Positions 54,735 to 56,141 of a DNA stretch of 64,000 bases are shown here, piece by piece (position 1 is the stretch's first letter; every line of letters begins with the position of its first letter). Position numbers and translations under genes: made by a program. This DNA is from Kitasatospora phosalacinea (GTDB lineage Bacteria; Actinomycetota; Actinomycetes; Streptomycetales; Streptomycetaceae), in contig NZ_JNYE01000047.1 in NCBI RefSeq assembly GCF_000717185.1, forward strand, positions 1 to 64,000, given 5' to 3'. Under the pieces are notes generated by a model. That model saw nothing but the letters and a program-made list of their open reading frames with translations. It was not told the origin of the DNA and made no database searches.

Positions 54735-56141
54735 ATGTCCGTGGACAGCAGCCCGGAGACTCAGCAGGCGCAGCGCCAGCAGACCAGCCTCACCACCGCC
54801 GCGGCCCGCAACCTGGCGACCACGACCAAGTCCGCGCCGCAGATGCAGGAGATCACCTCCCGCTGGCTGCTGCGGATGCTCCCGTGGACGCAGACCTCCG
54901 GTGGCACCTACCGGGTCAACCGCCGACTGACCTACACCGTCGGCGACGGTCGGGTCGAGTTCATCCAGACCGGCGGCGACGTCCGGGTCATCCCCCGGGA
55001 GCTCGGCGAACTCGCCCTGCTGCGCGGCTACGAGGACGACGAGGTGCTCGGCGCCCTGGCCGCCCGCTGCCAGCAGCGCGACTTCCGGGCCGGCGAGGTG
55101 CTGGTCGAGCGCGGCACCCCGTCCGACAAGATCCACCTGGTCGCGCACGGCAAGATCAACCAGGTCTCCACCGGCAAGTACGGCGACGACGCCGTGGTCG
55201 GCGTCCTCGGCGACGGCGACCGCTTCGGCGAGAACGCCCTGCTCGACGCCGACGCCACCTGGGACTACACCGCCACCGCCAAGACCGCGGGCACCCTGCT
55301 GACCCTCAGCCGGGCCGACTTCGAGGCCGTGCTCGCCCAGTCCGAGAGCCTCCAGGCCCACATCCGCGACTTCGCCAGCCTCCCGCTGCAGCGGCAGAAC
55401 GAGCTCGGCGAGGCCGAGATCGCCATGTCGGCCGGCCACGAGGGCGAGCACCTGCTGCCCACCGCGTTCGTCGACTACGAGCTCAAGCCGCGTGAGTACG
55501 AGCTCTCCATCGCGCAGACCGTGCTCCGCGTCCACTCCCGGGTCGCGGACCTGTACAACCAGCCGATGAACCAGATCGAGCAGCAGCTCAAGCTCACCGT
55601 GGAGGCGCTGCGCGAGCGCCAGGAGTACGAGCTGATCAACAACCGCGAGTTCGGCCTGCTCGCCAACTGCGCCTTCAACCAGCGCATCCAGACCCACTCC
55701 GGGCCGGCCACCCCCGACGACCTCGACGAGCTGCTCAGCCGCCGCCGCGACTCCGAGTTCTTCCTCGCCCACCCGAAGGCCATCGCCGCCCTCGGCCGCG
55801 AGTTCAACTCCCGCGGCCTGTACCCCGACACCGTCGACCTCCAGGGCCACAAGGTCCCGGCCTGGCGCGGCGTCCCGATCCTGCCCTGCAGCAAGATCCC
55901 GATCACCCCCGAGAACACCAGCTCCATCCTGGTGCTGCGCACCGGCGAGGACAACCAGGGCGTCATCGGCCTGCACCAGACCGGCATCCCGGACGAGTAC
56001 CAGCCCAGCCTGTCGGTCCGCTTCATGGGCATCGACGACAAGGCCGTGATCAACTACCTGGTCACCGCGTACTACTCGGCCGCCATCCTCGTCCCCGACG
56101 CGCTCGGCGTGCTGGAGAACGTGGAGATCGCGCACCGCTGA
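54735..56141 (+). CDS. Family 2B encapsulin shell protein with cNMP-binding-like insert
   Basis: 468-residue shell protein of the family 2B encapsulins, HK97-fold proteins that assemble into icosahedral nanocompartments around a cargo enzyme. The N-terminal arm (1-45) is followed by RWLLRMLPWTQTSGGTYRVN. A cyclic-nucleotide-binding-like domain is inserted at about 100-210 (GEVLVERGTPSDKIHLVAHGKI, GDRFGENALL). The HK97 fold then resumes with LPTAFVDYELKPREYELSIAQTVLRVHSRVADLYNQPMNQ and ends at ALGVLENVEIAHR. Automated annotation often miscalls such genes Crp/Fnr regulators. ATG 54735 has GAAGGAGAG upstream. Usual cargo genes (terpene cyclase, cysteine desulfurase, xylulose kinase, polyprenyl transferase) are not adjacent. 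Confidence 0.93.
   Translation: MSVDSSPETQQAQRQQTSLTTAAARNLATTTKSAPQMQEITSRWLLRMLPWTQTSGGTYRVNRRLTYTVGDGRVEFIQTGGDVRVIPRELGELALLRGYEDDEVLGALAARCQQRDFRAGEVLVERGTPSDKIHLVAHGKINQVSTGKYGDDAVVGVLGDGDRFGENALLDADATWDYTATAKTAGTLLTLSRADFEAVLAQSESLQAHIRDFASLPLQRQNELGEAEIAMSAGHEGEHLLPTAFVDYELKPREYELSIAQTVLRVHSRVADLYNQPMNQIEQQLKLTVEALRERQEYELINNREFGLLANCAFNQRIQTHSGPATPDDLDELLSRRRDSEFFLAHPKAIAALGREFNSRGLYPDTVDLQGHKVPAWRGVPILPCSKIPITPENTSSILVLRTGEDNQGVIGLHQTGIPDEYQPSLSVRFMGIDDKAVINYLVTAYYSAAILVPDALGVLENVEIAHR

Follow-up and report, generated by a model that had tools for sequence, protein, structure and literature searches.

Several Family 2B encapsulin systems offer a comparison for the locus described here. 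The 2-methylisoborneol (2-MIB) encapsulin is reportedly the subject of a preprint. In Streptomyces venezuelae, eshA, mibA and mibB form one operon (vnz_35035-35045; PMC6428758), and GPTGLGT, located in the unannotated N-terminal region of 2-MIB synthase-like cyclases, was proposed as a possible loading signal (Andreas and Giessen, PMC8346489). The cargo screen of the latter work looked within 20 open reading frames of the shell, and cyclases resembling geosmin synthase are known from it in Family 2B operons (Andreas and Giessen 2021, PMC8346489). Cyanobacteria and Deltaproteobacteria have clusters of geoA with cnb genes (PMC7251104). A local cargo gene is the usual feature of Family 2B and not a requirement, as two-component operons without obvious cargo ('Other') have been described (PMC12407261). 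In the open-licence literature, preprints being outside its scope, no report was found of trans loading of MibA or geosmin synthase by an EshA-type shell. Two-component operons without obvious cargo, geosmin synthase-like cyclases in Family 2B operons and geoA-cnb clusters were already known; new here are the split of the operon and the retention of the motif in an unlinked MibA.

The stretch analysed, referred to as the window, comprises 64,000 nucleotides of Kitasatospora phosalacinea and lies on contig C47 of an 8.6-Mb assembly in 340 contigs. Its gene at 54735-56141 (forward strand) is a complete, uninterrupted frame of 468 amino acids and encodes an EshA-like Family 2B encapsulin shell protein. 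The product scored 768.5 bits against NCBIfam model NF041163 (encap_f2b; cut-off 400), which agrees with the first-pass annotation. An N-terminal extension is present, since this alignment starts at residue 18; the arm typical of Family 2B has about 18 residues and is extended and disordered. The SrpI-like Pfam model PF19307 matched residues 219-466 with 457 bits (cut-off 22.8), the HK97/SrpI-type core being assigned by profile. The best solved relatives were PDB entries 9bhu, 9bhv and 9bi0, with which residues 1-467 aligned with zero gaps; we take these structures to be the EshA system of the 2-MIB encapsulin. The closest named shells (93-97% identity; among the 80 best of at least 564 confirmed stretches) came from K. 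phosalacinea, K. griseola, K. cheerisanensis and Kitasatospora sp. CB01950. Pairwise comparison of the shell genes of ten closely related genomes, that of the window among them, gave dN/dS values of 0.09-0.27.

Ahead of the core, at the E-loop position and within the ungapped alignment with the solved Family 2B shell, a cyclic-nucleotide-binding-like domain is inserted (residues 115-202, positions 55077-55340 of the forward strand; PF00027, 64.9 bits, cut-off 27.5), which reads FGENALLDADATWDYTATA. Its FGE...WDYTATA stretch, when read against the consensus of cNMP sites, appears to lack the usual phosphate-binding Arg. Because of the missing Arg, and because the inserted domain of Family 2B is reported not to bind cyclic nucleotides (PMC12407261), the domain of the window shell probably does not bind them either.

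The window shell is homologous over its full length to EshA of the Streptomyces operon, the same cyclase and methyltransferase are encoded in the genome, and the cyclase contains GP[ST]GLGT. Unlike in Streptomyces, the operon is split: the shell gene stands alone before a gene for a Bestrophin-like protein, and mibA and mibB are found on another contig.

Gene prediction gave 19 genes around the shell gene (43.5-64 kb), and 17 of them were scanned with Pfam and NCBIfam, the gene at 45897-46460 and a doubtful 66-amino-acid frame at 56434-56634 being left out. Among the best 25 matches listed, none of the 17 matched models of terpene cyclases, prenyltransferases, cysteine desulfurases, xylulose kinases or encapsulin cargo at E 1e-3, in line with the earlier statement that no recognisable cargo gene adjoins the shell. 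The motif PxG[LIV]GT was likewise absent from all predicted genes of the shell neighbourhood; the sole predicted gene of the window with this motif encodes an NRPS-like protein at 15920-19033, 36 kb away, where it reads PFGLGT and is taken as a chance occurrence. The region 8093-24848 (reverse strand) with large NRPS-like genes (1735, 1037 and 974 amino acids) and genes for a short-chain dehydrogenase and a thioesterase-like protein reads as a biosynthetic cluster. Elsewhere in the window, an FAD-dependent monooxygenase gene (47659-48840, forward strand) that is kept in part of the near clade adjoins a TetR-type regulator gene (46739-47521, reverse strand); the monooxygenase resembles Tet(X)-type enzymes far under the curated cut-off (159 versus 750).

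The list of neighbours given in the first-pass annotation held in its main lines. A patatin-like phospholipase gene (53421-54302, forward strand; PF01734, 101.4 bits) ends 432 bases ahead of the shell gene, and a PlsC-like acyltransferase (52130-53107, reverse strand) was recognised barely (PF01553, 23.8 bits, cut-off 23). Between the shell gene and the Bestrophin-like gene lies an open reading frame with Pro/Thr repeats (56383-57243, forward strand), seen in the sequence, without a Pfam match and not called by gene prediction. It varies among relatives, being present in 5 of 49 shell loci of the genus (L100, L101, L102, L104, L106) with 45-87% identity. The gene listed as DUF4239 (57334-58098, forward strand) belongs to the family now named Bestrophin-like membrane protein (PF14023; 190.8 bits, cut-off 32). 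By contrast, the CYTH-like gene (58357-58986) had no Pfam match at E 1e-3, and the score of the HEAT-like gene (59025-59504) was below the Pfam cut-off. A lipase-2 gene is located at 51202-52044.

Shell loci were collected from 70 Kitasatospora genomes (49 loci with at least 74% identity, and 96% for one partial locus; 43 belong to the clade of the window shell, clade A) and placed in a tree. Of its 140 shells, several from named loci are identical in sequence to members of the genus set. Clade A comprised 57 rows with an SH-aLRT of 86, which is below the 95 mark and not firm. The adjoining clade B (73 rows, SH-aLRT 97) is that of EshA, which is co-operonic with 2-MIB synthase in the order shell-mibA-mibB; 66 of its rows were mib-linked, and the other seven had at most about 530 bases of flank after the shell. 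Six Kitasatospora shells of the genus set fell into clade B, and four genomes (G022, G028, G029, G049) possessed one shell of each clade. In named genomes, for which the analysis covered the 80 best of at least 564 confirmed stretches, a cyclase of the 2-MIB synthase type and a methyltransferase directly followed the shell in 61, the shells of these mib-linked loci being 73-78% identical to that of the window; eleven of the other 19 had the Bestrophin-like gene, and eight ended soon after the shell. Behind clade-A shells, mibB was found in only one of the 36 testable loci, the one in G067, which is the single clade-A shell linked to mibAB, and geosmin synthase in two.

The Bestrophin-like gene followed the shell in 35 of these 36 clade-A loci (window not counted; seven more untestable) and in none of five clade-B loci. 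The first-pass annotation had pointed to conservation of the neighbourhood as a check; the Bestrophin-like gene was the only tested neighbour conserved across the whole shell clade. Because it encodes a membrane protein and lies 0.9-3.3 kb from the shell gene, it makes a poor cargo candidate, and its association is taken as synteny despite this conservation.

Further shell loci of the genus deserve mention in their own right. The clade-A shell of G009 (L146, G009:C1:5567581-5586000, shell at 8501-9481) matched with 96% identity up to residue 328 and then diverged within the same open frame, which is likely due to a frameshift, either a genomic one or an assembly error. Two Family 2B shells with 64% identity (L195 in G041, L196 in G009) had nothing recognisable as a cargo gene in the surrounding 8 kb or so, as judged with a limited query set, and were grouped in the tree with cyclase-linked shells of G008, G014 and G036. 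In the latter three genomes, which have no mibA, that other shell (L192, L193, L194) is followed by a cyclase 35-37% identical to MibA and a methyltransferase (53-56% identity), possibly a different system for a C-methylated terpene.

It had been considered beforehand that the cargo might be encoded elsewhere, and the genome does contain, on its contig C25, a mibA-mibB pair without a shell gene. MibA, the 2-MIB synthase (C25:129399-130631, reverse strand), scored 485.7 bits with NF041167 and is thus above the curated cut-off (400) of a model entitled 'family 2 encapsulin cargo terpene cyclase'; MibB, the geranyl diphosphate methyltransferase (C25:128496-129371, reverse strand), scored 478.2 bits with NF041943 (cut-off 400). 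No shell gene was present in the surrounding 8.6 kb (C25:125000-133613). PF19086 gave six matches in five genes of the genome. The N-terminus of MibA carries LERILRGPSGLGT, in which the GPSGLGT segment is part of RILRGPSGLGT, whereas no such motif was seen in the translations of the other terpene cyclases (C105, C81, C34).

PxG[LIV]GT was kept in 47 of the 52 MibA proteins of the genus (40/43 unlinked, 7/9 linked), while the reversed motif occurred in none of the 52; among the five misses, two were cut by a contig end and in another two the anchor for locating the segment was absent. All six motif columns (PSGLGT) were 100% identical across nine near relatives, compared to averages of 39% and 30% for the 40 flanking columns on either side. 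A motif that is invariant inside a hypervariable N-terminus points to a binding function retained after separation of the genes. As a DNA pattern, GPxGLGT is uninformative by itself, since eight matches in the genome stood against six for the backward control. In frame in predicted genes it occurred only in geosmin synthase, in MibA and in a protease-like gene on C52; near the C-terminal end of the latter lies the single genomic match to the exact GPTGLGT pattern, which is taken as chance.

Our preferred reading, to which we assign a probability of roughly two in three, is that of a split EshA-type Family 2B system whose shell loads MibA in trans and possibly also geosmin synthase. Packaging of MibA by the shell and loading through the motif are both inferred from sequence. 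The order shell-mibA-mibB, as in the neighbouring clade, would have been split, such that in the window's clade the shell gene stands alone before the Bestrophin-like gene and mibA-mibB, where present, lie elsewhere. The shell would assemble from one protein, MibA translated from its distant locus would enter it via RILRGPSGLGT in the variable N-terminus, and substrates and the volatile product would pass through shell pores. Geosmin synthase may load alike via GPRGLGTSAA in its linker. Uncoupling of the genes would allow separate regulation of shell and cargoes; according to a review (PMC8549240), WhiH controls geoA in Streptomyces and BldM controls the eshA-mibAB promoter. The missing cargo of the window shell is thus probably 2-MIB synthase, and perhaps also geosmin synthase, rather than one of the neighbouring lipid enzymes. 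Against this reading stand reports that EshA is not required for 2-MIB synthesis (PMC6428758) and that the cyanobacterial enzyme pair for 2-MIB suffices in Escherichia coli without cnb genes (PMC10580876).

MibA as exclusive cargo is also opposed by its distribution. MibA (at least 70% identity) was absent from seven of the 44 genomes with a clade-A shell (G008, G014, G021, G036, G038, G057, G062), three of which (G008, G014, G036) belong to the near clade of the window, and it was present in 39 of the 46 genomes with a shell of clade A or B and in 13 of the other 24 (p 0.009, kinship ignored). Genus-wide coupling of shell and mibA is therefore only moderate. MibA is not the sole reason for persistence of the shell, which in the seven genomes must have another role; all seven encode geosmin synthase. 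In G058, the only shell is prenyltransferase-linked, yet the MibA motif is kept, and the motif may thus serve other shells or have another role.

An alternative, somewhat less likely than not, is that the shell clade has geosmin synthase instead of MibA as its main cargo, loaded in trans via GPxGLGT in the linker and C-terminus of the enzyme. In the genome of the window this enzyme is encoded at C14:124242-126434. It scored 1149.4 bits with the encapsulin-cargo model NF041168, 51 bits short of the cut-off (1200), and is not filed as a member. Its interdomain linker contains GPRGLGTSAAN, while the C-terminal copy has decayed to AELGTAAMRIL (reference motif GPTGLGTSAAR), as it has in the near clade; both the score and this decay speak against the alternative. 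The system resembles known Family 2B encapsulins linked to geosmin synthase in having a shell of the same family and a GLGT motif in the linker and/or C-terminus, and differs from them in that the gene is unlinked, only the linker copy is intact and the score is below the NF041168 cut-off.

In favour of geosmin synthase, the gene was present in all 70 genomes of the genus, including the seven with a clade-A shell and no mibA, and the motif was found in linker or tail of 66 of the 70 proteins, compared to 0.15 expected from shuffled linkers and tails and none for the reversed motif. In G013 and G034 the sole geosmin synthase gene (one match, E 1e-100) is located between the clade-A shell and the Bestrophin-like gene, 85-93 bases past the shell, and in one (G346) of the 39 genomes sampled from the other genus of the family, a 72%-identical shell lies beside the only geosmin synthase match. 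The genomes G034 and G013 additionally carry mibAB behind a very divergent shell (L172 in G034:C56 and L174 in G013:C1; 56% identity, long branch) whose end nearly touches or overlaps mibA, as if the shells had swapped partners. A separate case is G039, in which a second, 54%-identical geosmin synthase-like gene directly follows a 59%-identical Family 2B shell (L266, G039:C1:756000-773000, 6292-10014). It has no GLGT at the C-terminus, and as G039 also has a normal unlinked geosmin synthase, L266 is regarded as a dedicated pair of cargo and shell.

The association was followed beyond the genus in an even draw of 394 Actinomycetes genomes (geosmin synthase at E 1e-90; shell NF041163 at E 1e-60). 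Among the matches listed, 92 genomes had geosmin synthase and 115 an NF041163 match; all 92 genomes with geosmin synthase matched the shell family, as opposed to 23 of the 302 without it, kinship being ignored in this count. Strong shell matches (E <1e-120) were listed for 89 of the 92 and 9 of the 302. These are counts of rows (98 at this threshold), a separate tally giving 108 genomes over the NF041163 cut-off; only weak shell matches were found in three of the 92 (G088, G168, G360). The co-occurrence suggests that geosmin synthase and the shell family are tied, with kinship and the three weak matches weighing on the other side. Again among the matches listed, shell and geosmin synthase genes lay within 700 bases of each other in at least 32 of 52 genomes outside the family of the window and in at least one of 40 inside it (G346). 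As adjacency is common outside the family and seen once inside, geosmin synthase appears to be a long-standing partner of the shell that became unlinked in this family.

Retention of the motif outside Kitasatospora is less uniform and counts against geosmin synthase as main cargo. Of 27 geosmin synthases from the other genus of the family, 11 lacked the strict motif although every one of the 27 genomes had a shell match; it was also absent from 2 of 22 from other families. Its retention in the other genus was not clearly tied to an EshA-type shell: 6/6 genomes with such a shell compared to 10/21 gave p 0.05, and the addition of the three next closest shells, two of which are mib-linked, changed this to 6/9 versus 10/18 (p 0.69). 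The geosmin synthase motif is thus not a clear predictor of an EshA-type shell. In G330 and G417, the shell is mib-linked and the motif of geosmin synthase is absent. Nor does the motif point to one shell type, since retention was mixed in six genomes of that genus whose only shell is prenyltransferase-linked: the motif is kept in G108 and G409, reads GLGV instead of GLGT in G432 (counted as lacking), and is absent from G142, G170 and G232.

We hypothesize that geosmin synthase is a second or alternative cargo. More broadly, and only tentatively, the EshA-type shell could be a shared compartment in Streptomycetaceae, into which 2-MIB and geosmin synthases are packaged in trans by one GPxGLGT code, geosmin synthase being an ancestral Family 2B cargo whose gene came loose in this family. 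Such a compartment would explain that geosmin synthase never occurred without a match to the shell family in the sampled Actinomycetes.

It is unlikely that the shell works empty or with other cargo, for instance in development or small-molecule storage. In G008, G014 and G036, the near relatives without mibA, dN/dS of the shell was 0.09-0.14, and purifying selection keeps the shell whether mibA is present or not; moreover, large multimers of EshA and an effect on development are named in the title of a work cited in PMC6428758. Against an empty shell, the unlinked MibA keeps the proposed encapsulation motif, as does geosmin synthase, which is present in all of those relatives.

PF19307 had only two matches in the genome, one on C47 and the other on C90. 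The latter is a second Family 2B shell, absent from the first-pass annotation, and is adjoined by a polyprenyl-transferase gene (501.3 bits; curated cargo cut-off 450). We consider it improbable that this prenyltransferase-linked shell has the window shell as a spare, Enc2-like partner component. Two Family 2B shells do occur in the genome and two-component shells exist (PMC12407261), but the C47 and C90 shells are only 65% identical and far apart in the tree of 140 shells, and they lie on different contigs, whereas the described pairs are defined by a spacing of at most 10 kb (PMC12407261). Compared to the two-component encapsulin of Streptomyces lydicus (PMC12407261), the window shell shares the CBD insertion, and its motif 1 (RRRD) is near the Enc2-type RRRK; it differs in that the locus has a single shell gene and that motif 2 (TVDLQGHKVP) is nearer the Enc1 type.

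That a neighbour is a new cargo, with lipid enzymes as the best candidates, had been put forward in the first-pass annotation and is hardly credible for patatin, acyltransferase or lipase: the patatin gene is close to the shell gene on the same strand and the lipase-2 gene is common to several near relatives, yet patatin is not conserved with the shell (3 of 42 testable same-clade loci, in G023, G024 and G027; one untestable, window not counted), neither it nor the acyltransferase adjoins the G042 shell, which is 99% identical, the lipase is confined to the near clade and G010, and all three lack PxG[LIV]GT. In the loci compared, the PlsC-like gene was found only where patatin is present (L100, L101, L102, L005). 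As a separate observation, the two genes (52130-54302 in the window) appear and vanish jointly between syntenic relatives (present in L005, G023, G024 and G027; absent in G042 and G011) and form a two-gene lipid module.

The cargo assigned to an encapsulin is usually deduced from the adjoining gene. In most of the genus, the shell is parted from its likely cargo gene and the cyclase keeps what is probably its loading segment; shells without local cargo therefore need not be empty, and their cargo should be sought genome-wide by motif. For the family, the question is raised whether geosmin is made inside a protein shell, from a gene that, among the matches listed, lies away from any shell in 39 of 40 sampled genomes.
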